Source of the DNA: Candidatus Kuenenia hertensis
GTDB lineage: Bacteria; Planctomycetota; Brocadiia; Brocadiales; Brocadiaceae
Length of the DNA: 64,000 nucleotides
Assembly: GCA_021646465.1 (NCBI GenBank)
Contig: SOET01000017.1
Location: 1-64,000 of the forward strand
Direction: 5' to 3'
The notes below the pieces were generated by a model. It worked only from the letters and a program-made list of their open reading frames with translations, was not told the DNA's origin and did no database searches. The position numbers and the translations under genes are program-made. This document shows positions 3,051 through 42,655 of this stretch, one piece after another; position 1 is the first letter of the stretch; every line of letters starts with the position of its first letter.

Positions 3051-3098
3051 AAAACAGTACATACTAAAAACGTATTTATTAAACGGGAGGCAATGTGT

Positions 3099-3833
3099 AT
3101 GAAAAAGACTGTGATTGGCCTGCTTGCATTATTTTTTATTGTGTTTATGTTCCATGCGTCGCCGCTGGTGCATGCAGAGGTAGAGGAGGAGAAAGAGGCG
3201 CTGAGCCCTGAAGAGGCTGCAGAGGCGCAGAAGAAACTTGAAGAAGCGCAGAAAAAACTAAAGAGAGCCGTAAAAAAGGTTCCTGAAGTAGAGAATCCGG
3301 GAACTATCACGGGGGTTGTTACCTGCAAACGGTCAAGAACAAATGCCGATGCTATTGTATATATTGAAAAAGTGGGTGATAACGTATTTGACCCTCCCGA
3401 TGAACATGCGGTGGTAGATCAGCTCAATTTAACCTATGTTCCCCATGTCGTCGCTATTCAAAAAGGCACAGTCGTTGATTTTCCTAATAGCGATGCGGTA
3501 AGGCACAATATATTTTCTCCGCCCACTGCTGCTTTCCAATTTAATCTTGGCACCTATCCGCCGGGTGTTATCAAGGAAGTATGTTTTGATGTTACGGGAG
3601 AAACTCCGCTGCTTTGCAACGTGCATGCAGAAATGTCGGGATTTGTTGTCTCATTGGATAATCCGTATTTTGCAGTCACTGATGACGAGGGAAATTATAC
3701 CATTGAGGGCGTTCCTCCGGGAAAATATACGCTGAAAACTTGGCATGAAAGGCTTATGTCATTATCTGAAGAGATAGTGGTTGAAGGAGGAAAAACTACT
3801 ACGGTTAATTTTGATTTAAAAAGAAGGAGATAG
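3099..3833 (+). CDS. Secreted cupredoxin-like protein with carboxypeptidase-regulatory-like domain
   Basis: A 244-residue exported protein. The ATG at 3099 lies 8 bases after GGGAGG; the ATG at 3093 is too close to that site. Residues 1-26 form a signal peptide, followed by a Glu/Ala/Lys-rich helix (27-65). A cupredoxin-like fold follows, with a possible type 1 copper set: H136 (RHNIFSP), then C173-N-V-H176-A-E-M179. The C-terminal part (GNYTIEGVPPGKYTLKTWHE) is a beta-sandwich of the carboxypeptidase-regulatory type. Such proteins often accompany MauG/peroxidase-type di-haem cytochromes, as here, suggesting a periplasmic electron-transfer or copper role. It ends 3 bases before the cytochrome gene. 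Confidence 0.85.
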   Translation: MKKTVIGLLALFFIVFMFHASPLVHAEVEEEKEALSPEEAAEAQKKLEEAQKKLKRAVKKVPEVENPGTITGVVTCKRSRTNADAIVYIEKVGDNVFDPPDEHAVVDQLNLTYVPHVVAIQKGTVVDFPNSDAVRHNIFSPPTAAFQFNLGTYPPGVIKEVCFDVTGETPLLCNVHAEMSGFVVSLDNPYFAVTDDEGNYTIEGVPPGKYTLKTWHERLMSLSEEIVVEGGKTTTVNFDLKRRR

Positions 3834-5340: not shown

Positions 5341-5781
5341 ATGAAGTATGCAAGAGCGCTTTTATTTTTCCTGGTCTTTGCTTTTGCCTTGTCAACGGGA
5401 GGATATGCCGTTGCGGATGAAGCAAAATGTCCACTGTGTGGTGCGAAACTGGAGGGAAATGAAAATACGGATTATCAGATCACCTTTGAAGATGGCAAAA
5501 TAGTATCGTATGGTTGCCCACATTGCGGGCTTTGGGAACATGCGAAAAAGAAGGACAAAATAAAATCGGTGAGGGCAAGGGATTTTATCAGTGGTGAATG
5601 GATGGATGTTGCAAAGATGTATATACTCGTTCATAGCAGCGCCGTTCCTGCCTGCAAAGATAATTGGATAGCTTTTGGTAAAAAGGATGAAGCAGAAAAA
5701 TTCCAAAAAGGGTTTGGTGGGAAACTCTACACTTTTGAAGAAGCCCTCGAAGAAAGAGGCAGGCAGCCGCTGGGGCATTAG
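5341..5781 (+). CDS. NosL-like periplasmic copper-binding protein
   Basis: A 146-residue protein with a signal peptide ending near GYAVADEA and a strong GAGGAGG site. Mature residues include CPLCGAK and CPHCG, and the C-terminal pattern KDEAEKFQKGFGGKLYTFEE matches the NosL family, in which this segment forms the last helix and strand. NosL proteins bind Cu(I) and serve nitrous-oxide reductase assembly. Here the Cys is not a lipobox and no nosZ is nearby, so delivery of copper to the upstream cupredoxin-like protein is a reasonable alternative. It is the last gene of the three-gene exported set. Confidence 0.8.
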   Translation: MKYARALLFFLVFAFALSTGGYAVADEAKCPLCGAKLEGNENTDYQITFEDGKIVSYGCPHCGLWEHAKKKDKIKSVRARDFISGEWMDVAKMYILVHSSAVPACKDNWIAFGKKDEAEKFQKGFGGKLYTFEEALEERGRQPLGH

Positions 5782-9572: not shown

Positions 9573-10958
9573 ATGTATTTTAAACAAATTGCAGTGCCGG
9601 GTATTGGCTGCCTGTCGTATGTGATTGGCTGCCCTGCCGCAAAAGTTGCGGCAGTTATAGACCCGAAAAGAGATGTGCAGGACTACATTGATATTGCCAG
9701 GAACGAAGGCATGAAGATAACACACGTTATCGAAACACACATTCATGCCGATCATGTAAGCGGCAATTTGGAAATTCGCTCCCGTACCGGCGCTGATATC
9801 TATTTTCATGAAACGGCGCCTGTTACCTTCGAACATAAAAAACTGAAAGAAGGGGATATCATAGAACTGGGTACGGCAAAATTTGAGGTAATTCATACCC
9901 CCGGACACACCCCGCATTCTCTCTCTCTTTTAGTAACTGATAAAAGCAGATCAGAGGAACCCTGGCTCATTCTCAGCGGAGACCTTCTCTTTGTCGGCGA
10001 TATAGGAAGGCCCGATCTGGCGGGGAAGGAGCTGCTGGAAGAACAGGTGAAAAATCTTTATGAAAGTATTTATAACAAACTTGGCAAATTATCCGACCGT
10101 TTAGAGGTCTATCCGGCGCATGGGCAAGGTTCGCTTTGCGGGAAAGGAATGAGTTCCAAAACCAGCACTACGCTGGGATATGAACGTCATACAAACCCTC
10201 TTCTCCATCTTGATTCTATGGAAGAGTTTAAAAAATCCTTTATGCAGGAATATCCGGCCAGGCCAAAGAGTTTTTCACACATTATATCAATGAACACAAA
10301 AGGCGCCCCCTGGATGGACAGAAGCATTGATGACAGACCTCTGACGCCGTCACAATTCCGGGATGCCATGAAAATTGGTGGGAAGGTTATAGATACAAGG
10401 GATGCTCCCGCGTACGGCGGTGTGCATATTCCGGGAAGTATTAACATTGGTTTTGGAAATCAGATGGTCAATTGGATTGGTATGGCAGTGGAGCCGGAGT
10501 CAAAGATACTCCTCGTCTTTACCGAAGGTACAAAGTATAGAGATATGTGCACTCTTCTTTACAGGATTGGCTATGATAATATTCTTGGATATTTGCAAGG
10601 CGGGATTCCTGCATGGCAGGAGCATGGTTTCCCGATAGAAAGACTTCCTCAAATCTCCGTGCAGGAATTACAGGATGAAATAAAAAGGAAAACGTATCGG
10701 CATATAATAGATGTCAGGTCGGAAGCAGAATGGAATAAAGGGCACATAGAGGAAGCCGAGCTTTTGCCGCTGACAGAAATGCTTCTGAAAGAAGAAGTGA
10801 ATCTGCCAAAAGAGGAAAAAATGATAGTTACCTGCCGCGTAGGATATCGGGGGAATATGGGGGCAAGTTACTTACAAATGCGCGGATTTAAAAACGTACA
10901 CAATCTGGCCGGTGGCATGCAGGCATGGGCTAATGCCGGGTTCCCGGTAAAGATTTGA
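9573..10958 (+). CDS. CstB-like persulfide dioxygenase with pseudo-rhodanese and rhodanese domains
   Basis: A 461-residue cytoplasmic enzyme with GGAAGGAGG ahead of the start. Residues 1-240 are a metallo-beta-lactamase fold of the ETHE1 type: HIHADH at 56-61, H112, D137 and H183 as iron ligands. Residues about 255-355 are a rhodanese-like domain whose active loop (VFTEGTKYRD) has Thr317 where Cys is expected, so it should be inactive. Residues about 362-461 are a rhodanese with Cys421 in TCRVGYRG. This dioxygenase/pseudo-rhodanese/rhodanese order is that of CstB, which oxidises persulfides to sulfite and thiosulfate. It heads the sulfide-oxidation block with DUF1641, SQR and SulP genes. Confidence 0.9.
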   Translation: MYFKQIAVPGIGCLSYVIGCPAAKVAAVIDPKRDVQDYIDIARNEGMKITHVIETHIHADHVSGNLEIRSRTGADIYFHETAPVTFEHKKLKEGDIIELGTAKFEVIHTPGHTPHSLSLLVTDKSRSEEPWLILSGDLLFVGDIGRPDLAGKELLEEQVKNLYESIYNKLGKLSDRLEVYPAHGQGSLCGKGMSSKTSTTLGYERHTNPLLHLDSMEEFKKSFMQEYPARPKSFSHIISMNTKGAPWMDRSIDDRPLTPSQFRDAMKIGGKVIDTRDAPAYGGVHIPGSINIGFGNQMVNWIGMAVEPESKILLVFTEGTKYRDMCTLLYRIGYDNILGYLQGGIPAWQEHGFPIERLPQISVQELQDEIKRKTYRHIIDVRSEAEWNKGHIEEAELLPLTEMLLKEEVNLPKEEKMIVTCRVGYRGNMGASYLQMRGFKNVHNLAGGMQAWANAGFPVKI

Positions 10959-11043
10959 TACATTCTTTAAGAAGAAAAGAAAGAGCATTTCTACAGGGAT
11001 GAAATCGTGGACAAAAAATAACAAAAAGGGATGAGGATGAAAT

Positions 11044-11748
11044 ATGGAACATGACAAAAAAGAAAAATCCATGTTACAGGAGAGTGCGGATACTGCCAGG
11101 ATAGCCGAACTCTTAACGCAGGTATCAGGGCGTATTGATTCTCTTGAGAGGTCGCTATCAGGCATCGAAGTTATAGCCAAAAAACTTCCTGCGGTGATGG
11201 CGGTAACAACTGACGCAGCAGACGAGTATTATCGGGAAACTGCCAAATCCGGAATCGACATCGATGAACGCTTTAAAAAAGTAAGCGAATTGTTAATCCA
11301 GCTTACCGATCCCAAAAAGATCGATACCATTTCCCAATTTATAGAAAAAATCGACAATCTGACGCCTCTCCTGGAACAATTAGAGAGAATGCCTGATACC
11401 CTCGCAGTAATGGTAGATTCATTTGACGAACTGTGCAGAAATGCCCAACGATCAGGACTCGATCTTGAATCGATTATAAAACAAGGAAAGAACGCAGCAG
11501 CAATATTTAACGAACTTCTCAAATCTGACGAGTTAAAAACTCTTATGAATTCAGGCATTTTGGACCCCAAAGCGGTAAGTGTTGTAGCGCAAGCCGGATG
11601 TGCACTGGCGGAATGTAGAGAAGATCGTCCCCAAAAAATCGGATTGATAGGCCTTATGAAAGCAATATGGAATTGTGATCTGCAACGCGCACTTGGATTT
11701 CTTATTAGTTTTGGCAAACGATTTGGACGTTTGCTTAATAAAAATTAA
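11044..11748 (+). CDS. DUF1641 family protein
   Basis: A 234-residue soluble, helical, Leu-rich protein without a signal peptide. The region from about residue 35 has repeated amphipathic helices, and the C-terminal segment IGLIGLMKAIWNCDLQRALGFLI is the hallmark of DUF1641. DUF1641 genes commonly adjoin sulfide:quinone oxidoreductase genes, as here; their role is unknown and may be to help SQR bind the membrane or a quinone. Its stop codon overlaps the 9-base direct repeat that flanks the mobile element at 11753. Confidence 0.85.
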   Translation: MEHDKKEKSMLQESADTARIAELLTQVSGRIDSLERSLSGIEVIAKKLPAVMAVTTDAADEYYRETAKSGIDIDERFKKVSELLIQLTDPKKIDTISQFIEKIDNLTPLLEQLERMPDTLAVMVDSFDELCRNAQRSGLDLESIIKQGKNAAAIFNELLKSDELKTLMNSGILDPKAVSVVAQAGCALAECREDRPQKIGLIGLMKAIWNCDLQRALGFLISFGKRFGRLLNKN

Positions 11749-11752
11749 GAAT

Positions 11753-11918
11753 CAGTATTGTCCGGTTAGGAATTTGCGCGTACCGTTTTTGTCATACCCG
11801 AATGCTTTTATCGGGTATCCAGAGGTTTGTTTATTATGGATTCCCGCTAAAAACATGCGGGAATGACAGCTTTAGAACAAGGAAATAAAACATGCAAATT
11901 CCTAACCGGACAATGGTG
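11753..11918. mobile_element. MITE-like element with 9-bp direct-repeat flanks
   Basis: The left end CAGTATTGTCCGGTTAGG and the right end, read inverted, CACCATTGTCCGGTTAGG match over 25 bases with two differences. The 166-bp element is flanked by ATTAAGAAT at 11744-11752 and 11919-11927, a 9-bp direct repeat consistent with target-site duplication. It has no coding capacity. Inside is an imperfect palindrome of the TGGATTCCCGC...GCGGGAATGAC type. It sits exactly at the 3' end of the DUF1641 gene. Confidence 0.85.
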
Positions 11919-11985
11919 ATTAAGAATAATTGTTTATTAAGAAAAAAAATATACATACCTTGATGTTTTAGGAATTTCAATCTTC

Positions 11986-12049
11986 GTAGGGTGGGCATTG
12001 CCCACCGAAAAGGTATGCAATGTCAGATGGTGGGCAATGCCCACCCTAC
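11986..12049. repeat. GTAGGGTGGGCATTGCC inverted repeat
   Basis: GTAGGGTGGGCATTGCCCACC at the left is answered by its reverse complement at the right, over a 22-base spacer. Each arm contains a small palindrome (GGGCATTGCCC), the same nested design as the GTCGGG elements. It lies immediately upstream of the SQR ribosome-binding site, where it could affect transcript structure. Confidence 0.8.
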
Positions 12050-12081
12050 AGTTAAATTCTCTCTATACAGGAGACTGATGA

Positions 12082-13275
12082 ATGGTACAGAAAGATCATT
12101 ATCAAGTGTTAATTGTGGGCGGTGGTACCGGAGGCATTACGGTAGCAGCCCAATTACACAAAAGTCAAAAAATCCCGGATATTGCAGTAATTGAACCTTC
12201 GGAAAAATTGTATTACCAGCCAATCTGGACGCTTGTTGGCGCCGGGGTTTTCCCCAAAGAGGTGTCCGAACGGGAAACAAAAGAATTTGTTCCTGCTGAC
12301 GTTGTCTGGATTAAAGATAAGGTTGCTCAGTTTGATCCTGAGAAAAATAATCTTACTACTGAAGCCGGAAAGGTAATCGGATACGATTATTTGATAGTGG
12401 CGGCTGGCATTCAGCTCGACTGGGACAAAATACCCGGCCTCAAGGAATCAATCGGAAAAAACGGCGTCTGTAGTAATTATTCATATCAAACGGTTGGTTC
12501 AACCTGGGAAAGTATTCGAAATTTTCAGGGCGGAAACGCCATTTTTACCCAGCCGGACACCCCTATTAAATGCGGCGGGGCGCCTCAGAAAATTTGTTAT
12601 CTGGCAGAACACTATTTCCGGAAATCCGGCGTGCGGGAAAAGAGCACTATTACCTTTGCGCTTCCGCAAGGAGTGATTTTTGGAGTGAAGAAATATGCTG
12701 ATGCACTTGTGGAAGTGGCCAAAAAGAAAGGCATCGGTGTGAAGTATCAGCATAATCTGACAGAATTACGATCCGATAAAAAAGAGGCAATATTCAGGAA
12801 GGTTGATACGGGGGAAGACGTTGTTATGAAATATGACATGATTCATGTGACTCCGCCGATGAGCGCCCCGGATTTTTTGAAAAAGAGCCCGATTGCAAGT
12901 GAAAATGGTTGGGTGGACGTAAATAAAGATACATTGCAACATAACCGTTATGAAAATATTTTTGCAGTTGGCGACTGCAGCAGCCTTCCCACATCAAAGA
13001 CTGCTGCTGCTATCCGGAAGCAGGCGCCGGTACTTGTTCATAATTTATTATCCAAAATCAACGGAGCGCCATTGGATGATTCTTATGATGGCTACACTGC
13101 CTGTCCTATAGTAACCGGATACGGAAGCCTGATTCTTGCTGAGTTTGATTATGACAAAAATCCGAAAGAGACCTTTCCCTTTGACCAGGCGCAGGAACGT
13201 TACAGCATGTATGTAATGAAGGCTTATATGTTGCCGCGGATGTACTGGCATGGAATGCTGAGAGGGCGTGTGTGA
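12082..13275 (+). CDS. sqr: Sulfide:quinone oxidoreductase, type II-like
   Basis: A 397-residue FAD enzyme that would oxidise sulfide at the membrane surface and reduce quinone. It has the N-terminal dinucleotide motif VGGGTGGIT (12-20), the second FAD motif AVGDCSSLPTSKTAAA near 294-309, and the active-site pattern PIKCGGAPQKICYLAE with Cys164. Cys340 (in YTACPIVTGYG) is the likely partner. The PIKCxGAPQK motif is that of the type II, mitochondrial-like group. The start follows CAGGAGACTG. Its neighbours, a CstB-like enzyme, DUF1641 and SulP, fit a sulfide to persulfide to sulfite path. Confidence 0.92.
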   Translation: MVQKDHYQVLIVGGGTGGITVAAQLHKSQKIPDIAVIEPSEKLYYQPIWTLVGAGVFPKEVSERETKEFVPADVVWIKDKVAQFDPEKNNLTTEAGKVIGYDYLIVAAGIQLDWDKIPGLKESIGKNGVCSNYSYQTVGSTWESIRNFQGGNAIFTQPDTPIKCGGAPQKICYLAEHYFRKSGVREKSTITFALPQGVIFGVKKYADALVEVAKKKGIGVKYQHNLTELRSDKKEAIFRKVDTGEDVVMKYDMIHVTPPMSAPDFLKKSPIASENGWVDVNKDTLQHNRYENIFAVGDCSSLPTSKTAAAIRKQAPVLVHNLLSKINGAPLDDSYDGYTACPIVTGYGSLILAEFDYDKNPKETFPFDQAQERYSMYVMKAYMLPRMYWHGMLRGRV

Positions 13276-13339
13276 CATATTATTTACAACCGAAAATTGA
13301 AATAGTCTGTCTAACTATTTGTTATGAGAAGAGGTGTAA

Positions 13340-15004
13340 ATGAGCAGGGTGGAGGGGATATTTCCCGGTATTTATTCAATTCTCAGATACAAAAAGGAAT
13401 TTCTCAGAGGGGATATCAATTCCGGTCTGACCGTGGCCGTACTGCTCGTTCCCCAGGCCATGGCCTATGCAATGCTTGCCGGATTGCCTCCGATCACAGG
13501 TCTTTATGCTTCTACTTTTCCACTTTTTGTCTATGCGTTTTTCGGATCATCAAGACAACTGGCAGTCGGACCTGTTGCCATTGTGTCCATCATTGTTTTT
13601 TCCTCTCTTTCAGAGGTAACAACACCAGGTTCACCTGATTATATTAATCTTGCCCGGTTATTGGCGCTTATGGTTGGGTGTATCCAGATTGTACTATGGT
13701 TTTTCAGATTGGGATTTATTGTAAATTTCTTTTCCCATGCCGTGATCAGTGGTTTTACTTCTGCCGCTGCTCTTATTATCGGCTTCAGCCAGATAAAACA
13801 TTTATTTGGAATAAAACTTCCCTCCACTCATTCTATTTTTCATCTGATTCATGAATTGTTTGGGAAAATTTCTGAAACCAATATTCATTCGCTTCTGATA
13901 GGACTATCCGCTGTGGGAGTGATTTTCTTTTTTAAGAGGAAATTCCCCTTTTTTCCCGCCTCTTTATTTGTGGTAGTTTTGGGAGTCATGGTGGTATATT
14001 TTTTTAAACTCCATGATCGGGGAGTGCAAATTGTCGGTGATGTTCCCCGGGGGGTACCAGGTTTAAACATACCAAATTTATATGATTTTGCGCTGATCAA
14101 ATCCCTTCTTCCCCCTGCATTGACTATTGTTTTTGTGGGATTTATGGAATCCATTGCCATCGCAAAGAAAATGGCTGCCAGGGAAAAATATCACATTAAT
14201 CCCGACTACGAGTTCAGAGGTCTGGCTTTTTCAAATATTGTTTCAGGACTTTTTTCCGGTTATCCGGTAACCGGTGGATTTTCAAGAACTGCGGTCAACT
14301 ATGAAGCAGGAGCGAAAACGGTTCTATCGTCAGTAATTACTTCAATCATGATTATTCTGGTATTGCTTTTTCTCACGCCGCTTTTTTACTATCTTCCGAA
14401 AAGTGTCCTGGCCTCCATTATCCTGGTAGCTGTGGCGGGTCTTGTGGATGTGAAGGACTTTAAGAATCTTATAAAACTTGATAAAAAGGATGGTTTTCTC
14501 CTTCTTTTTACTTTTGTCCTGACTTTGGGGTTTGGCATTGAGACCGGTATTATTTCAGGAGTCATCCTTTCCCTTCTCTTTTTTATATGGGAAAGTGCTC
14601 ATCCCCATATTGCCGAAGTAGGGTATTGGGAAGAAGAGGGGGTATTAAAGAATGTTAAATATTATGATGATGTGAAAACCAGGGATGACGTCCTGGTCAT
14701 AAGAATTGACCGTTCCATTTACTTTGCCAACATCGGTTTTATTGAAAGTTACATTAATAAGGCTATAAAAGACAAAGGTGAAGTTAAAAGTATTATTCTC
14801 GATTTTTCTGCGGTAAATGACATTGATGGAACTGCGATTATCGAACTTGATGAAATGATTGATAATTATTACAAACGCAACATCAGCGTTATGCTCGCTA
14901 ATGTGAAAACCCCTTTAAAAGCAATGCTTAATAAAAAGGTATGGCAACATGAGATGGATTATGAATTGACCACCAAAAATATCGCTCAAATATTAAAGGG
15001 TTAG
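13340..15004 (+). CDS. SulP family anion permease with STAS domain
   Basis: A 554-residue inner-membrane transporter with ribosome-binding site AGAAGAGG. The N-terminal part has the SulP signature VAVLLVPQAMAYAMLAGLPPI, followed by roughly ten to twelve hydrophobic segments and the conserved GGFSRTAVN near residues 311-320. The C-terminal STAS domain runs from about residue 440 to the end, with the ILDFSAVNDIDGTA core. SulP proteins exchange sulfate, bicarbonate or other anions. Position after SQR suggests sulfate or sulfite traffic in sulfide oxidation, but bicarbonate is possible. Confidence 0.9.
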   Translation: MSRVEGIFPGIYSILRYKKEFLRGDINSGLTVAVLLVPQAMAYAMLAGLPPITGLYASTFPLFVYAFFGSSRQLAVGPVAIVSIIVFSSLSEVTTPGSPDYINLARLLALMVGCIQIVLWFFRLGFIVNFFSHAVISGFTSAAALIIGFSQIKHLFGIKLPSTHSIFHLIHELFGKISETNIHSLLIGLSAVGVIFFFKRKFPFFPASLFVVVLGVMVVYFFKLHDRGVQIVGDVPRGVPGLNIPNLYDFALIKSLLPPALTIVFVGFMESIAIAKKMAAREKYHINPDYEFRGLAFSNIVSGLFSGYPVTGGFSRTAVNYEAGAKTVLSSVITSIMIILVLLFLTPLFYYLPKSVLASIILVAVAGLVDVKDFKNLIKLDKKDGFLLLFTFVLTLGFGIETGIISGVILSLLFFIWESAHPHIAEVGYWEEEGVLKNVKYYDDVKTRDDVLVIRIDRSIYFANIGFIESYINKAIKDKGEVKSIILDFSAVNDIDGTAIIELDEMIDNYYKRNISVMLANVKTPLKAMLNKKVWQHEMDYELTTKNIAQILKG

Positions 15005-15059
15005 CAATGCAAAAATGATAATAGGGATTCAGTTATATTTTGCCTGCCTGGCAAAAGCT

Positions 15060-15116
15060 ATGGAAAGGAGGTGGTGGAGATGTCTTGCTTTTGGTTTCTG
15101 TCTCTGTAATTTATGA
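15060..15116 (+). other. Very short open frames behind a perfect ribosome-binding site
   Basis: AAAGGAGGTGG at 15064-15074 precedes an ATG at 15080 that encodes only nine residues (MSCFWFLSL). An ATG at 15060 opens an overlapping 18-codon frame rich in Trp and Cys (MERRWWRCLAFGFC). A leader peptide for the gene at 15216 is conceivable, but nothing besides the strong site supports it. Confidence 0.25.
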
Positions 15117-15215
15117 GGTTTGTAGTATGTGATTTTTTCGTTTTATTAATTTTTTTAATGAGAGGTGCTTTTTACGTTAACCGGAAGTTTTTAATAGTAA
15201 TACAGGAGGAAACAT

Positions 15216-15857
15216 ATGCGTACAAAATTCAATATATCTATTATGGTAATGGCATTATGCTGCATTTCTTTTCTTTATACCTCGAATGTTATTGCAGGAG
15301 GGAAATACTCGGCAGAAGGTGTCTTCGTTGAAGGATGCAATTGCGATGTGCCTTGCCCTTGCGAACTGATTAGTTTTGAAATGGGATGCGAAACTATCGC
15401 TGCAATCTCACTGAGCATGGGTGAATTTGAAGGTGAAAATCTGTCAGGTGCAAAAATTGCGTATGCCACTGAGCCGGGGAAATGGGTGCGTATTTATGTT
15501 GATGCAAAAGATGAGAAACAGAAGCAGGCAGCCACCAGGTTTGCTGAAAGTGTTTTTGCTTCGTTTGGTAAAGTTGAAAAGACTGATAGTGCAAAGATTA
15601 ATTTTTCCGGTTCTGACGGAAAATACAACGTTACCGTAAATGACGGCAAAATCGCGTCCCTGAGTACTGAGCCTATTCTCGGAGGGGATAACAAAACCCC
15701 TGTGATCCATATGAATACCAAAAGTAAATTGTCTCCGGTCTTTATGCAGGGCAGGGTTGTTTCCGGCAATTATAGCGATGGTGATAGAAACTTTGAATTC
15801 AAAGGGACCAACGCTTACTTCAACACAAACATAAAATGTGAAAAGTGCGAAAAATAA
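15216..15857 (+). CDS. Exported DUF1326 protein
   Basis: A 213-residue protein with CAGGAGG before the start and a signal peptide ending near VIAGGKY. The mature protein opens with EGVFVEGCNCDVPCPC, the defining Cys cluster of DUF1326, and ends with NIKCEKCEK. Members of this family have a conserved beta-rich domain of unknown function and are often found near copper or cytochrome genes. Usual members are cytoplasmic; this one appears exported. The Cys set could bind copper. It follows the SulP gene after about 210 bases. Confidence 0.8.
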   Translation: MRTKFNISIMVMALCCISFLYTSNVIAGGKYSAEGVFVEGCNCDVPCPCELISFEMGCETIAAISLSMGEFEGENLSGAKIAYATEPGKWVRIYVDAKDEKQKQAATRFAESVFASFGKVEKTDSAKINFSGSDGKYNVTVNDGKIASLSTEPILGGDNKTPVIHMNTKSKLSPVFMQGRVVSGNYSDGDRNFEFKGTNAYFNTNIKCEKCEK

Positions 15858-16818: not shown

Positions 16819-17220
16819 ATGAAATTGTGTATTACCTCTGCTGGCAAGGACATAGAATCAAAGATAGATGAGCGATTCGGAAGATCTCCTTATTTTTTAT
16901 TTGTGGATACCGATACAATGGACTTTAAGGCAGTACCGAACACTGCGGAGACAGCGGGAAGGGGAGCCGGTATAAGGGCTGTTCAACTCATAGTGGATAA
17001 CGAAGCAGATGCCGTATTGACGGGCGTCGTTGGTCCTAACGCATTTGAGGCATTAAAAGCTGCAAAGGTAAATGTCTACGAGGGCGCTTCGGAACTGGAT
17101 ACCGTTAAGAATGCTGTAGAAGGCTTTAAAAAAGGTGATTTTAAAGAGGTTTCTTGTCCTGCAGAAGGCCATGGAAGCGGAAGAGGCAGGGGAAGAGGAG
17201 GTTTCAGAGGCGGAAGGTGA
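16819..17220 (+). CDS. NifX/NifB C-terminal-like (DiNase) protein
   Basis: A 133-residue protein with TAGGAGA before the start. It is a single dinitrogenase iron-molybdenum-cofactor-biosynthesis domain: MKLCITSAGKD, IDERFGRSPYFLFVD, GRGAGIRAVQLI, VLTGVVGPNAFEAL. Such small proteins in non-diazotrophs travel with Mrp/MinD ATPases bearing ferredoxin modules, exactly as here. They may carry metal clusters. The C-terminus is a Gly/Arg-rich tail (GRGRGRGG). Its stop overlaps the next gene's GTG start (GTGA), indicating translational coupling. No nitrogenase gene is in the window. Confidence 0.88.
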   Translation: MKLCITSAGKDIESKIDERFGRSPYFLFVDTDTMDFKAVPNTAETAGRGAGIRAVQLIVDNEADAVLTGVVGPNAFEALKAAKVNVYEGASELDTVKNAVEGFKKGDFKEVSCPAEGHGSGRGRGRGGFRGGR

Positions 17221-18158
17221 CAGAGAGGGATACTATTGGTATAAATGACGTAATTGCTGCTATGAATGAAACACCAGTTTCCATCCCTATCATTGGAATA
17301 ACGGGGGGTAAAGGAGGTGTTGGCAAGAGTACGGTAGCGGTGAATCTGGCAGAAGCATTTGTTCAAAAGGGATATAAGGTTTCATTGGTGGATGCTGATG
17401 TCGATGCCCCTGATGATCATCTCCTGCTCAATATCCCTTTAAAAAATTCAGAAGACGTTGTGATAACACAACCATTGTTTATCGATGATAAATGTACACG
17501 ATGCAGAAGATGCATTACTGTATGCAGGGTGAATGCCCTCTTTCAACCGAAAAATCATATTCCGGTTCTGATTGGCGATTGCAACGGATGTGAAGCCTGC
17601 ATCCTTGTATGCCCTTCTGACGCCATTGCCAGGAACAAGAAATTGGTGGGAAAGACTTTTATGAGTAAAAACAAAAACCTGAAGCTTTTTACCGGTGAAC
17701 TTATCCCCGGTATTGAAGAGAGTTCATTTGTCGTCAATGCGTTAAAGGAAAGGGTTTTTAAAGAAGCCGGAGAGAGTGATATTATCATAATAGATACATC
17801 CCCCGGCGCCCATTGTAATGTAATGAATGCACTGAAAGGTTCGGATCACGCCTATGCAGTGACAGAACCAACACCCCTTGGCGCTCATGATCTGGAACGT
17901 ATCCTTAAGCTGTTGAGCATCATGCAGATTAAAGCGAATATCATCCTTAATCGTTCCGACTTGCCAGGGGCAAGGGAAAAAATACAGTCGGTTGCAGAGA
18001 ATTACAATGTAGAAATATCAGGTGAAATAGCAATGGATGACTTACTTGTCCGGAGTTACGTTAAAGGAATACCGGTTGTAAGAATGTATCCGGGGGCGAA
18101 AAGTTCTCAGGCGATAATAAAGTTATCTCAAAAGATAGCAGCGATGCATTTATCATGA
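17217..18158 (+). CDS. MinD/Mrp-type ATPase with inserted 2x[4Fe-4S] ferredoxin module (first copy)
   Basis: A 313-residue protein. I place the start at the GTG at 17217, which overlaps the preceding stop; frames further upstream lie inside that gene. Deviant Walker A GGKGGVGKST lies near residues 29-38, followed by switch motifs DADVDAPD and DTSPGAHC. Between them is a bacterial ferredoxin insert with CTRCRRCITVC and CNGCEACILVC, suited to two 4Fe-4S clusters. The C-terminal PGAKSSQAI is typical. The family is thought to act in metal-cluster assembly or transfer. It overlaps the next, paralogous gene by ATGA, so the pair may form a heterodimer. Confidence 0.88.
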   Translation: MTERDTIGINDVIAAMNETPVSIPIIGITGGKGGVGKSTVAVNLAEAFVQKGYKVSLVDADVDAPDDHLLLNIPLKNSEDVVITQPLFIDDKCTRCRRCITVCRVNALFQPKNHIPVLIGDCNGCEACILVCPSDAIARNKKLVGKTFMSKNKNLKLFTGELIPGIEESSFVVNALKERVFKEAGESDIIIIDTSPGAHCNVMNALKGSDHAYAVTEPTPLGAHDLERILKLLSIMQIKANIILNRSDLPGAREKIQSVAENYNVEISGEIAMDDLLVRSYVKGIPVVRMYPGAKSSQAIIKLSQKIAAMHLS

Positions 18159-19081
18159 AAGAGATTGTAATAGTAAGCGGAAAGGGAGGTGTTGGTAAAT
18201 CCACAATTACGGCATCATTCGGTGTGTTATTCTCGAAGAAGTATAAAGTGGTATTGGCAGATACTGATGTCGATGCACCTAATCTCGCATTGTTCTTCGA
18301 TGTTGCAGAAAAGAACTCTTATGATATATCAACCTCAGAGAAGGCATATATAGCCTATGGCAAATGTACAGGCTGTTTGAGATGTGTGGAGGTATGCAGG
18401 TTTTCCTCAATGGTTGCATTACATAAAAAACCAGTAGTAATTGCATACACTTGTGAGGGTTGTGGCGCATGCATGGTTGTTTGCCCTGAAAAGGCTATTG
18501 AAATTAAAAGGGTGGAAAACGGGAGGATTACTGTCTACGGTACAGACCACATCATCATCGTATCAGGGGCGTTACATATAGGTGAAAGCAATTCAGGAGG
18601 GATTGTTGATGAGGTAAAGAAAATTGCAAAGCAAGAGGCAAAAAAATTAAATGTGGATTTTATCATTACTGATGGTCCTCCTGGCATTGGATGTCCTGTG
18701 ATATCGTCAGTCAAAGGAAGTGACTATGTAATAGCCGTTACCGAACCAACACCGGCTGCGCTTCGCGACCTGAAAAGGCTTATTGCCGTTGTTAAAAATT
18801 TCCGAATACCGGCAGGTATTGTGATTAACAAATCAGAGATAGATCAGAAATCGGGGCGGGAAATAAAGGGTTTTGCAGAGAAAAATGAGATTACCGTCAT
18901 TTCCGCGATACCATATGACCTGCGTATTCCGGAGGCGATTGCAAAGGCAATGCCTGTTGTAGATGCATACCCTGATGCCCCGTCATCGCAGGCTATCAGA
19001 AGGCTTGTTGATACGGTGTGGACGCTGGTTCAATCGGGGGCGATTGAACCAGCAGTTGCAAAAAAGGATAAAAAGGGGTGA
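18155..19081 (+). CDS. MinD/Mrp-type ATPase with 2x[4Fe-4S] ferredoxin module (second copy)
   Basis: A 308-residue paralogue of the preceding gene, read from an overlapping ATGA. It has Walker A SGKGGVGKST near residue 8, DTDVDAPN, the ferredoxin insert CTGCLRCVEVC and CEGCGACMVVC, and DGPPGIGCPV. The last 20 codons run through a 30-base perfect hairpin (19024-19053), so the residues around LVQSGAIEPAV derive from a repeat; the family's usual end is near the SSQAIRRL segment just before. This suggests the original stop was lost when the repeat arrived. Confidence 0.88.
   Translation: MKEIVIVSGKGGVGKSTITASFGVLFSKKYKVVLADTDVDAPNLALFFDVAEKNSYDISTSEKAYIAYGKCTGCLRCVEVCRFSSMVALHKKPVVIAYTCEGCGACMVVCPEKAIEIKRVENGRITVYGTDHIIIVSGALHIGESNSGGIVDEVKKIAKQEAKKLNVDFIITDGPPGIGCPVISSVKGSDYVIAVTEPTPAALRDLKRLIAVVKNFRIPAGIVINKSEIDQKSGREIKGFAEKNEITVISAIPYDLRIPEAIAKAMPVVDAYPDAPSSQAIRRLVDTVWTLVQSGAIEPAVAKKDKKG
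19024..19053. repeat. GGTTCA-type hairpin inside a coding sequence
   Basis: GCTGGTTCAATCG-GGGG-CGATTGAACCAGC is a perfect 13-bp stem with a 4-base loop. It is translated as part of the C-terminus of the second MinD-type ATPase. A nearly identical hairpin follows the stop codon of the AhpD-like gene at 21402. Confidence 0.9.
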
Positions 19082-19141
19082 ATTCCCGGTTTTTTCTAAA
19101 AGTATATTAATTTAAGCTTGGGTCAGGCAAAACAGATTTAT

Positions 19142-19311
19142 CAATCCAGTCCTCCCCCTATCCCCCTCCGGAGGGGGACAAAGGGGGAGGACTGGATGAA
19201 CGGGTCTGCTTCGTCCATTCGGCAAAGTTTACGCTGAGCATACGAATCGCTCAGGACAGGCTTTGACCCATCCTAAATATTAAGCTTTTTACAAAAAATC
19301 GGGAATGCACC
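19142..19311. repeat. G/C-tract palindrome and AATCGGGAATGC motif
   Basis: CCCCCTCCGGAGGGGG forms a palindrome near 19155-19175, with outer CCTCCCCC and GGGGGAGG arms. TTACAAAAAATCGGGAATGC follows at about 19291-19310. No gene lies between the second MinD-type ATPase and the FeoA-like gene; this stretch is about 280 bases. Confidence 0.6.
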
Positions 19312-19361
19312 CCTTTTTGCCCCTCCGTATTTTATGAAATCTATCTATGAAGGGAGAGAAA

Positions 19362-20063
19362 ATGGAGAATACTCTGAAATATGCTGAGAGAGGAGTGCGT
19401 TTAAAGGTGACAGGTATTAGTGAGCACGTATGCGGCTTTGGGCTCAAACAACTGAATAAATTCGGAATCAAAGAAGGAGCAAACCTTGAGATTGATCCGG
19501 CTTTTGTATCTCAGGTTCTGTTGAATAGAAAAGGAAGAGATGTTCTTTTAGGGTATGAATCTGCAAGAATGATTGTTGTTGGTGAAAGAAGGTTGACAGA
19601 TTTAAAACCGGGAGAATCAGGAAAGATCACTGATATGGAAGGCGGGTATGAGGCTAATAGTAGATTTAAAGAGCTTGGAATGGATGAAGGAACAGAGATA
19701 ATCCTCAAATCATATCCACATCTCGGCGAGCAGTATGTCAGGTGTCAAGGTGTAAAGATATTTAATGAAAATATGAAGGAATTATTGAAGTTGCCCCCGG
19801 TAGAATACATCATAGTTGATGTTAACGGGACCGAAAAGCAGATATCATTTATGAAAACTGGTGAAAAAGGAAAGATAGCAAAGGTTATTGCAGAGAAAGG
19901 GAATCGTGAAAAATTTGATAGAGAATGGATCAAAGAAGGCAACGAAATTGAAATCATGCACAGGTTGGACCCGGAAAGCATCCCGTTAATGGTAAAGGTG
20001 GAAAATAAAAGCCATGTGATAGGGGCCGGGCTTACGGAGAAGATATTTGTGGAAAAAATATAG
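19362..20063 (+). CDS. Tandem FeoA-like (SH3-fold) protein
   Basis: A 233-residue protein started at the ATG at 19362, which follows GGGAGAG; the ATG at 19347 precedes that site. Three FeoA-like units are visible: about 10-65 (GFGLKQLNKFGIKEG), 70-140 (LKPGESGKI, SRFKELGMDEGTEI) and 150-225 (MKTGEKGKIAKV, KEGNEIEIM). The pattern RFKELGMxxG is the FeoA signature. FeoA is a small cytoplasmic partner of the FeoB ferrous-iron transporter. A triple array without intact FeoB nearby is unusual; the FeoB piece at 24800 is truncated. A role in iron delivery or sensing is inferred. Confidence 0.75.
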   Translation: MENTLKYAERGVRLKVTGISEHVCGFGLKQLNKFGIKEGANLEIDPAFVSQVLLNRKGRDVLLGYESARMIVVGERRLTDLKPGESGKITDMEGGYEANSRFKELGMDEGTEIILKSYPHLGEQYVRCQGVKIFNENMKELLKLPPVEYIIVDVNGTEKQISFMKTGEKGKIAKVIAEKGNREKFDREWIKEGNEIEIMHRLDPESIPLMVKVENKSHVIGAGLTEKIFVEKI

Positions 20064-20090
20064 TTACGCAAATTTCTCAAAAATAATATC

Positions 20091-20159
20091 GTAGGTCGGG
20101 TTTCTTACCCGACAACTTTTTATTCCTATTGGTATTGTCGGGTAAGAAACCCGACCTAC
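20091..20159. repeat. Double GTCGGG palindrome
   Basis: Almost the same as the element at 6982-7049: GTAG, then GTCGGGTTTCTTACCCGAC, a short AT spacer, then the inverse ending in CCTAC. It lies between the FeoA-like gene and the Mrp gene. A half hairpin (GCTGGTTCAATCTT) follows at 20212-20225. Confidence 0.85.
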
Positions 20160-20241
20160 AATGTTTTAATAGAGACCTTACTGGAAATATTATTTGTGGT
20201 GCGATTTTTTTGCTGGTTCAATCTTACAGGGAGTTTTATAT

Positions 20242-21012
20242 ATGAATAGTAAGGGAATAGGTAAAGTAGATCATTTTGTTGGCGTTGCAAGCGGCAAGGG
20301 TGGTGTGGGAAAAACCACTGTTGCCATTAACCTTGCATTGGCGCTCAGGAAAGAAAATTATCATGTCGGGCTTTTAGACGCAGATATCTATGGACCAAAT
20401 ATTCCGGTAATGATGGGACTCTCTGAAAAGCCTAAAATAGAAGAAGGAGCAATTATGCCTCTGAAAAAATTTGGATTAAAAGTAATGTCATTTGGTTTTT
20501 TTCTGGAGGCAAATCAGCCGGTAATTTGGCGCGGTCCATTGGTATCGAAGGCTATTGCACAATTTCTGAATGATGTAATGTGGGGTGAACTGGATTATCT
20601 TGTCGTTGATCTGCCACCCGGAACAGGGGATCCTTCTATTACCATCGCTCAACAAATACCTGACGTCTCAATAGTTATCGTTACGACCCCTCAGGAAGTT
20701 GCTTTAGCTGATGTGAGAAAGGCAATTACCATGTTTGGTGAAATGAATGTCAAAGTATTAGGGATCGTAGAGAATATGTCATATTTTCAATGTTCTCATT
20801 CTGAAGAAAAAATAGGGATATTTGGGAAAGGAGGCGGCGAGAATCTAAGCCGTCAGATGGATATTCCGCTTTTAGGGGCCGTTCCTATTGATATAGAACT
20901 CAGAAAAGGGGGTGATGAGGGTATACCTCTCATGGCTGATAAAGAAGATTCAGAGACGGGTAAGATATTCAAGGCCATTGCAAAGAATGTGGTGGAGCTT
21001 GAGGCAGATTGA
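20242..21012 (+). CDS. Mrp/NBP35-family iron-sulfur carrier ATPase
   Basis: A 256-residue protein; the ATG at 20242 follows AGGGAG. It has the deviant Walker A SGKGGVGKTT near residue 20, LDADIYGPNIPVMMG, VVDLPPGTGDPSI and the family signature VENMSYF. Mrp/ApbC/NBP35 proteins transiently bind a 4Fe-4S cluster at a CPxC motif placed after VENMSYF. Here the region reads QCSHSEEK with only one Cys, so cluster binding may be altered or shared between subunits. The operon position next to the FeoA-like and AhpD-like genes suggests cofactor assembly. Confidence 0.9.
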   Translation: MNSKGIGKVDHFVGVASGKGGVGKTTVAINLALALRKENYHVGLLDADIYGPNIPVMMGLSEKPKIEEGAIMPLKKFGLKVMSFGFFLEANQPVIWRGPLVSKAIAQFLNDVMWGELDYLVVDLPPGTGDPSITIAQQIPDVSIVIVTTPQEVALADVRKAITMFGEMNVKVLGIVENMSYFQCSHSEEKIGIFGKGGGENLSRQMDIPLLGAVPIDIELRKGGDEGIPLMADKEDSETGKIFKAIAKNVVELEAD

Positions 21013-38690: not shown

Positions 38691-40358
38691 ATGGAACATA
38701 CACGTCTGGTTATTATAGGCGCTGTAGCATCGGGGACAAAAACAGCCGCAAAGGCAAGAAGAGAAAACCCTGGTGCAGAGATAACGCTTATCACGGAAGA
38801 GGCGGATATTTCCTATGCAGCATGCGGTACGCCTTATTATATCTCGGATATAATTAAAGACAGTTCCTCTCTCATAATAAAAACACCCGATTATTTTCAA
38901 ACGATGTTGAATGTTCAAGTCCTTACCGAACACAGGGTTGAGTCCATTAATTCCGCTGAAAAGGATATAGTAGTCAGAAATCTTAAAACACATTATCCTG
39001 TTACTCTGCCATATGATCGCCTTGTTCTGGCAGTGGGAGCAACTCCCTATGTTCCTCCGTATGAAGGGGTGCACTATGGAAACATTTTTACGTTACATAA
39101 TGTTAGTGATGCAATAAAGATTAAATCTCTTCTCGGGCAGAGGAAAGTAAAAAATGCCTTAATAGTCGGAGGCGGATTTATTGCGTTAGAAGCGGCAATG
39201 ACCCTGATAACGTATGGAATAAATACCCGTCTCATTATTCGCCGCGATCATATCCTTTCAAATTTTGATAAAGACATTGCAATCCTTATTCAAAACCATA
39301 TCAAGGCAAAAGGAGTACAGATACTTGAAGAGGATGAGGTAAAGAAATTTAAGGCCGATGCAGAGGAGAACGTTGCAACTGTTGTTACGGAAAAACAAAC
39401 CTTTTCTGCAGAATTTGTGCTGCTTACGACAGGGACGAAACCAAACATTGACCTTGCAAGAAAAGCGGGAATTACTATCGGATCAACAGGGGCAATACAG
39501 GTAAATAACAGGCTGGAAACAAATATTCCTGATATTTATGCCGTTGGTGATTGTGTAGAAACGATACATATGATTACAAAAAAACCTGTATGGATTCCAT
39601 TGGCAACAACAGCGAATAAACACGGACGTATTGCGGGAATTAATATTTGCGGCGGGAACGATACCTTTCCTGGTGTTTTGGGTACGTTTGTCGTCAGAGT
39701 ATTTGATTGGACTGTTGCCAAAACCGGGTTGTCAGAGAAAGAAGCGATTAAGGATGGATTCGTTACTGAATCTGTTATTGTTCCTTCCCATGATAAAGCG
39801 CATTATTATCCGGGGGCAAAACTGATCATTGTAAAACTGATAGCGGAAAAACAAAGCGGCCTTTTGCTTGGCGCGGAAATTGTTGGGGAGGGTGTGGTTG
39901 ATAAAAGAATTGATGTTGTTTCATCTGCTTTGATGGGGAAGACAACCATTGAGCAGTTATCAAAATATGATTTGTCGTATGCCCCTCCGTATTCAACCCC
40001 AATGGATCCCCTTATAACAGCCGCAAATGTTTTGCGTAAAAAATTAGAGGGAAAGATTCAAAGTATATCCCCGTTTACCACGAAACAAAAGATGGAGAGA
40101 AAGGAAGATTTTGTTTTATTGGACGTCCGTACAAAAGAAGAGTTCGATACAGGGCATATTGAGGGTTGTTGTCACTTACCCTTAAATGTATTAAAGTCAA
40201 AGGCTGATACATGGGATAAAAAGAAAGAAATTATTACTTATTGCGGAGTAGGCTTAAGGGCGTATCAGGCGTATCAGATTTTAAAGAATGCAGGGTTTGA
40301 AAACGTAAAATTCATGGAAGGGGGCCTATATTCATGGCCGTACACAATAAAAAAATAA
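38691..40358 (+). CDS. CoA-disulfide reductase-like flavoprotein with C-terminal rhodanese
   Basis: A 555-residue cytoplasmic enzyme. N-terminal FAD motif (LVIIGAVASGTKTAAKARR), active-site Cys45 in SYAACGTPYYI, NAD(P)H motif ALIVGGGFIALEAAM near 160-175, and YAVGDCVETIH near 285. A dimerisation domain follows, then a rhodanese from about residue 455 with Cys518 in TYCGVGLRA. This CoADR-Rhd architecture reduces CoA persulfides or polysulfides with NAD(P)H, linking it to the sulfur genes at 9.5-15 kb. The Gly-rich motif has A11-V-A where GxGxxG is usual. It stands alone between repeats. Confidence 0.9.
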   Translation: MEHTRLVIIGAVASGTKTAAKARRENPGAEITLITEEADISYAACGTPYYISDIIKDSSSLIIKTPDYFQTMLNVQVLTEHRVESINSAEKDIVVRNLKTHYPVTLPYDRLVLAVGATPYVPPYEGVHYGNIFTLHNVSDAIKIKSLLGQRKVKNALIVGGGFIALEAAMTLITYGINTRLIIRRDHILSNFDKDIAILIQNHIKAKGVQILEEDEVKKFKADAEENVATVVTEKQTFSAEFVLLTTGTKPNIDLARKAGITIGSTGAIQVNNRLETNIPDIYAVGDCVETIHMITKKPVWIPLATTANKHGRIAGINICGGNDTFPGVLGTFVVRVFDWTVAKTGLSEKEAIKDGFVTESVIVPSHDKAHYYPGAKLIIVKLIAEKQSGLLLGAEIVGEGVVDKRIDVVSSALMGKTTIEQLSKYDLSYAPPYSTPMDPLITAANVLRKKLEGKIQSISPFTTKQKMERKEDFVLLDVRTKEEFDTGHIEGCCHLPLNVLKSKADTWDKKKEIITYCGVGLRAYQAYQILKNAGFENVKFMEGGLYSWPYTIKK

Positions 40359-42145: not shown

Positions 42146-42655
42146 ATGAACAAAGGCAAAATGATATGCTCTTTTATTACTGCGCTGGCGGCCTTATGTT
42201 TTATGCCGCATAAAACAGGAGCTGCCGAAGTACCATTTACAAATGAAACAATAAATGCACAAAAATTATGGGAATATATGACAAAGGAAAATCCCTACCA
42301 GCACTATCCGGAATGGCCTGGCAAGGAAGGCATCTATGAAAGCACTATGCCTCCGGGTGATATATTACGGTTATATATAAACGACCTTGCCCTGGATACC
42401 GTTGTTTACAAAAAGGGAATATTCCCCAACGGTTCCCTCCTCATAAAAGAAATTTATACGGAAGAAAAAAAAGTGTCGTTATTAACGGTAATGTACAAAG
42501 CGAAGGGTTTTAATCCGAAGGGGAATGACTGGTATTGGGTTAAATACAAACCGGATGGGGAAGTTAAGTTGGAAGGGAAGGTAGAATTATGCATCGAGTG
42601 TCATGTGGGTGTTGCAGAGAATGACTATGTGTTTACGGGAAGCATAAAGAAATAA
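42146..42655 (+). CDS. Exported cytochrome P460-like monohaem protein
   Basis: A 169-residue protein with a signal peptide ending near TGAAEV. The sequence TMPPGDILRLYINDLA, PNGSLLIKEIYTE, LLTVMYKAKGFNP and DWYWVKYKPDGEV is the P460 fold, and the single haem motif CIECH (149-153) is close to the C-terminus with DYVFTGS after it. In true P460 enzymes a Lys cross-links to the haem and the substrate is hydroxylamine or NO; other members are simple cytochromes. The cross-linking residue cannot be assigned with confidence here. It overlaps no gene and may be co-transcribed with the next one. Confidence 0.83.
   Translation: MNKGKMICSFITALAALCFMPHKTGAAEVPFTNETINAQKLWEYMTKENPYQHYPEWPGKEGIYESTMPPGDILRLYINDLALDTVVYKKGIFPNGSLLIKEIYTEEKKVSLLTVMYKAKGFNPKGNDWYWVKYKPDGEVKLEGKVELCIECHVGVAENDYVFTGSIKK

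Follow-up and report, generated by a model that had tools for sequence, protein, structure and literature searches.

The window analysed here is the whole 64,000-nucleotide stretch of contig SOET01000017.1 (positions 1 to 64,000, forward strand) from the Candidatus Kuenenia hertensis assembly GCA_021646465.1. Between positions 9573 and 15857 it carries a putative sulfide-oxidation locus built around a persulfide dioxygenase (PDO) and a sulfide:quinone oxidoreductase (SQR). A first-pass annotation, made from the letters alone, had read consecutive PDO, DUF1641, SQR and SulP genes as a complete-looking module, and had placed a CoA-disulfide/CoA-persulfide reductase (CoADR)-rhodanese at 38691. 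Open reading frame checks together with Pfam and NCBIfam profiles revealed that these four genes, and a DUF1326 gene in the same range that the annotation had left unnamed, stand side by side as genuine, intact genes; the CoADR gene was found where it had been placed. Orthologues in other Brocadiales, 74-87% identical and in a kept gene order, rule out chance.

9573-10958, + strand: PDO-rhodanese of 461 amino acids (metallo-beta-lactamase [MBL], pseudo-rhodanese and rhodanese domains), 'HADH' lineage, by domain profiles, structure matches and tree
11044-11748, + strand: DUF1641 protein of 234 amino acids, predicted all-helical, by profile match
11749-12081, no strand: 333-bp spacer between DUF1641 and SQR, with two inverted-repeat elements resembling MITE or REP elements
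12082-13275, + strand: type II-like SQR of 397 amino acids, with redox Cys164 and Cys341, by match to human SQOR
13340-15004, + strand: SulP-STAS anion transporter, by domain profiles
15216-15857, + strand: Cys-rich DUF1326 protein with a putative signal peptide
38691-40358, + strand: CoADR-rhodanese with Cys45 and Cys518, by profiles and structure matches

The first of these genes encodes a protein with the three-domain chain of CstB, in which an MBL domain is followed by an inactive and an active rhodanese domain. The positions that bear on its class are the following.

9738-9740, + strand: codon of His56, predicted iron ligand, by alignment to PDO structures (ligand role of the homologous residue, PMC6060420)
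9753-9755, + strand: codon of His61, third His of THxHADH (Phe/Tyr in CstB-type enzymes), by alignment
9906-9908, + strand: codon of His112, predicted iron ligand, by the same alignment (role, PMC6060420)
9981-9983, + strand: codon of Asp137, predicted iron ligand, by the same alignment (role, PMC6060420)
10521-10523, + strand: codon of Thr317, loop of the pseudo-rhodanese domain, variable alignment column
10833-10835, + strand: codon of Cys421, rhodanese catalytic cysteine, invariant column

Alignment with PDO structures revealed an intact 2-His-1-Asp facial triad (H56/H112/D137), which rules out the loss of iron ligands that the first-pass annotation had named as a possible objection, and placed C20, C189 and C421 at CstB positions 20, 201 and 408. 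The predicted model (predicted local distance difference test [pLDDT] score, 87) superposed on 3tp9 with a template modelling (TM) score of 0.91, and also on human ETHE1 (4chl) and the Myxococcus PDO (MxPDO, 4ysb). The closest solved structures were 3tp9, an Alicyclobacillus relative, and 3r2u, CstB of S. aureus, which share with the window PDO the domain order, the triad and the equivalents of the three cysteines; the gene of the Bacillus relative (L016) likewise adjoins a type II-like SQR. Identity to CstB and 3tp9 is, however, 34-36%, and the motif differs. T-H-x-H-A-D-H is the motif of Type I and Type II PDOs, whereas Type III (CstB-type) enzymes carry Phe or Tyr in place of its third His (PMC6060420); the window PDO retains H61 where CstB has Phe, so that it failed the test of Type III membership by the published motif. 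The full THxHADH, the iron triad and the MBL fold are shared with the Type I enzymes ETHE1, Myxococcus PDO and BpPRF (5ve3), although these align structurally at only about 20-28% identity and lack the pseudo-rhodanese domain. The proposed match to CstB holds for the domain build, the triad and the cysteines, but not for the MBL motif. Thr317 and Cys421 do lie in the first and second rhodanese loops, respectively, as had been noticed; Thr317 is nevertheless no specific evidence for CstB, because its column is variable.

In the alignment, His61 occurs in 17 of 17 rows of one clade, window included, versus Phe or Tyr in all 27 other three-domain rows, and His holds this position in all 12 of the additional Desulfobacterota members examined. 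This separate clade has a support of 100/99 and comprises eight Brocadiales, seven Desulfobacterota, one metagenome-assembled genome (MAG) titled Deltaproteobacteria (L011) and the planctomycete G183. At a threshold of at least 49% identity, a His61-type PDO was found in 60 of 389 sampled genomes (15%) of the sulfate-reducer class to which G424 belongs. By alignment and tree, the window PDO is a member of a sister lineage to the CstB type, which its host shares mainly with sulfate reducers. Planctomycetota PDOs outside Brocadiales showed 45% identity (G183) or at most 41%, and the anammox enzymes thus resemble their sulfate-reducer counterparts more than they resemble those of most other planctomycetes. 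These comparisons suggest horizontal transfer, in one direction or the other.

The SQR matched human mitochondrial SQOR (6mp5, 6oi5), its best solved relative, over the full length with an E value of about 1e-143, and both SQOR redox cysteines are conserved as Cys164 and Cys341; Pfam and NCBIfam scored it as a pyridine-nucleotide-type flavoprotein. Unlike human SQOR, it is bacterial, would be expected to use menaquinone, and is encoded beside DUF1641. The DUF1641 protein scored 34.4 bits against PF07849 (cut-off, 21). A DUF1641 subunit is required for the formate:menaquinone activity of the B. subtilis formate dehydrogenase ForCE, in which ForE (YjgD) couples a soluble oxidoreductase to menaquinone (PMC8808070), and on this ground we propose a quinone-coupling role, in which DUF1641 would be a possible menaquinone-coupling partner of SQR. 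The analogy has its limits, as the window protein is linked to SQR, its profile match to ForE1 in the Protein Data Bank set is weak (E value, 0.6), and its AlphaFold model is poor (pLDDT, 52). The placement of DUF1641 beside SQR suggests a quinone-coupling subunit of broader use. Some Brocadiales have, without DUF1641, a second type of SQR (L095:3418-4620, L102 and L103), which shares 53-55% identity with the window SQR and is broken into two frames in G017.

To follow the locus in relatives, 62 genomes of the order Brocadiales were surveyed. Close PDO orthologues, with 74-91% identity over the matched part, were present in nine of them, the window genome included (G000, G016, G019, G022, G023, G024 with the gene split over contigs, G031, G035 and G044). 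SQR was found at 79% identity or above in seven genomes and DUF1641 in nine, with the G035 copy disrupted and the G048 copy fragmentary; within the order, DUF1641 is confined to this locus. The usual gene order in genus g3, which is probably Brocadia, is PDO-TauE-DUF1641-SQR. The survey thus bore out the PDO-DUF1641-SQR order, with TauE added, and went against SulP, which had no match at any relative's PDO or SQR locus, where TauE is found instead; SulP was therefore rejected as a conserved member of the module. In the window, some 23 kb separate the CoADR from the module. Among the relatives, the gene adjoins SQR in G035 alone and is near the PDO/DUF1641 remnants in G048, which supports the earlier association of this gene with the others. 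It matched the CoA-persulfide/CoA-disulfide reductase-rhodaneses 6pfz, 8a56 and 3icr over the full length, with the flavin-thiol Cys45 and the rhodanese Cys518 in place, and its closest solved structures were of NoxA-3/CoA-persulfide reductase.

The cluster is patchily distributed. The congener G031, assembled as one closed 4.4-Mb contig, has the PDO without SQR or DUF1641, and G030, also a congener, has intact SQR and DUF1641 with the PDO directly upstream cut to about 70 codons (L094, G030:C1:177953-178162). These gene contents point to independent losses of PDO and SQR in sister species, and indicate that the two are not strictly interdependent. To call the module complete was an overstatement, given sister species in which the PDO alone, or SQR and DUF1641 alone, are left.

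The host genome (4.17 Mb, 89 contigs, with the window on contig C77) encodes hydrazine synthase alpha, which identifies an anammox planctomycete and rules out a normal aerobe; the first-pass reading of a PDO-SQR module in an anaerobe is thereby supported. In a genome-contig scan the nearest named relatives were a Planctomycetota MAG (85%) and Candidatus Brocadia (82%). The same genome encodes a fused CcoN-CcoO cbb3 oxidase with CcoG, so that this anaerobe has the means of reducing trace O2. Scalindua is reported to reduce O2 under microoxic conditions through a cbb3 oxidase and flavodiiron proteins (PMC13253579), and Kuenenia genomes reportedly encode cbb3 (PMC10156729). Among the non-anammox hosts of the His61 clade, haem-copper oxidase matches were found in three of nine and bd oxidase matches in seven of nine, while the closed genome of G183 had neither.

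Of the 21 non-anammox loci in the clade, 9 have a peroxiredoxin gene within 1.5 kb of the PDO, versus 0 of 25 CstB-type loci (Fisher p, 0.0003, uncorrected for relatedness, with a comparison set made up mostly of planctomycetes and with some short flanks). At least two kinds of peroxiredoxin are involved, in different phyla and orientations. The desulfuromonad L007 (7200-7856) and G183 (L152:6966-7628) share the same 1-Cys-type enzyme, 68% identical, directly upstream of the PDO. This recurrent neighbourhood leads to the hypothesis of a combined persulfide and peroxide defence. Taken together, the peroxiredoxin adjacency, the oxidases of the clade hosts, the cbb3 oxidase and the reported O2 reduction by anammox bacteria favour use of the PDO in microoxic episodes. 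The first-pass annotation had called an oxygen-requiring dioxygenase in an anaerobe a puzzle, and the host cbb3 oxidase and the link of the clade to peroxiredoxins soften that puzzle and answer it in part.

We reasoned that the module probably equips an anammox bacterium to detoxify and partly oxidize sulfide and persulfide, with its PDO active in microoxic episodes, a reading drawn from gene content that we hold with moderate confidence. The module would work like a CstB-type PDO plus a type II-like SQR. SQR would oxidize H2S and pass two electrons to menaquinone, probably aided in quinone coupling or docking by DUF1641, and the sulfane sulfur would be released in a low-molecular-weight persulfide, for which CoA persulfide is one candidate. 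With trace O2 present, the iron PDO domain would turn the persulfide into sulfite, and the rhodanese domain would shuttle sulfane sulfur among persulfide, sulfite and thiosulfate. The sulfite would be exported via TauE in relatives, for which SulP could substitute in the window host, or might be oxidized to sulfate by AprBA and Sat. With O2 absent, the PDO step would stand idle, and the rhodanese and the CoADR-rhodanese would handle the persulfide, the latter enzyme regenerating sulfide. The sequences establish the host type, the genes with their domains and residues, the phylogeny and the gene neighbourhoods; we infer the substrates, the iron, the direction of flux and the conditions of use, as well as every enzymatic step. 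The PDO lineage, which anammox bacteria share mainly with sulfate reducers, often stands beside peroxide-defence genes. This suggests that the set may act as a sulfide safety valve during leaks of trace O2. Anammox bacteria share their habitats with sulfide producers and are put to use in wastewater plants, in which sulfide can be of consequence. We found no description of the SQR-DUF1641-PDO set in anammox bacteria in the literature searched.

Several observations weigh against this reading. The g3 genomes with PDO have no strong cbb3 match, and a correlation between PDO and cbb3 was not seen in Brocadiales, where a strong cbb3-like match occurs in four of the nine PDO genomes and in many PDO-less genomes too. 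The link to peroxiredoxins comes from the loci of relatives and does not extend to the anammox PDO. A related PDO is inhibited by nitric oxide (NO) (PMC12856154), a core anammox intermediate. No sulfide-responsive regulator was noticed near the module, and PDO and SQR are separable, as G031 and G030 illustrate.

The His61 lineage raises the question of why an O2-dependent persulfide enzyme occurs in strict anaerobes, and whether microoxic use or something else explains it. One answer would be that PDOs of this lineage work without O2, in sulfurtransfer or persulfide handling or with NO or nitrite as the oxidant, H61 marking a changed metal site. The known hosts indeed belong to anaerobe groups, namely the anammox bacteria and the sulfate reducers, together with G183, whose closed genome has no haem-copper or bd oxidase match, and H61 sets the clade apart from CstB. 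However, this His is the normal state in characterized O2-dependent Type I and II PDOs (PMC6060420), the peroxiredoxin adjacency indicates oxidative stress, most sulfate-reducer hosts have a bd oxidase, and the effect of NO on a related PDO is inhibitory and not supportive (PMC12856154), so that we consider this explanation unlikely. Its broadest form, in which the whole lineage of CstB-shaped enzymes in anaerobes would process or oxidize persulfide free of O2, with NO or a nitrite-derived oxidant in anammox bacteria, seems to us highly improbable; if true, it would directly couple anammox nitrogen intermediates to sulfide oxidation.

An energy-conserving route is a further, rather improbable reading, in which sulfide would be oxidized to sulfate via SQR, PDO and reverse AprBA-Sat, and its electrons would support the reduction of nitrite or NO as a sideline of the anammox metabolism. 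The intact SQR and DUF1641 genes speak for it, as does a Sat-AprB-AprA-like cluster in the host genome (L150:4609-7883), in which Sat and AprA each score above one curated cut-off and AprB below its own. On the other hand, AprA-like genes occur in genomes irrespective of PDO, so that sulfate assimilation fits equally well; moreover, the PDO step requires O2, the cluster is patchy, and literature searches found no such route described for anammox bacteria.

It is very unlikely that the cluster is decaying, as an inherited pathway that no longer works. The inverted-repeat elements have been inserted between DUF1641 and SQR, where the 333-bp spacer compares with about 40-80 bp in relatives, and copies of the second element (11986-12049) occur at 79-89% in G030 (L094 11229-11312). 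The truncated G030 PDO, the broken DUF1641 of G035 and the fragmented cluster of G048 point the same way, but all reading frames in the window are full-length with intact active-site residues. A zinc glyoxalase II-like hydrolase in place of an iron dioxygenase is scarcely credible. H56, H58, D60, H61, H112, D137 and H183 would permit a dinuclear site on sequence alone, yet the GR-P/T-D loop of PDOs is present and PDO-type proteins rank ahead of glyoxalases by both sequence and fold.

The wider neighbourhood extends upstream of the PDO. In six other Brocadiales genomes DUF1326 is found close to the PDO, frequently accompanied by NosL and by a protein of the carboxypeptidase-regulatory-like kind, and both of the latter have window counterparts that belong to the conserved neighbourhood of the relatives.

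3093-3833, + strand: carboxypeptidase-regulatory-like domain protein
5341-5781, + strand: NosL-like protein

A copper or thiol link via the Cys-rich DUF1326 and the NosL-like neighbours is possible. No Rfam RNA was found between 5 and 20 kb of the window, and a promoter scan gave fewer matches than in shuffled sequence. Just after the module, 16819-21012 encodes a NifX-like protein, two ferredoxin-domain MinD-type ATPases, an iron-transport-like protein and an Mrp/NUBPL ATPase. At 42146-42655 the window also encodes a cytochrome P460-like protein, which is of note given the anammox host.

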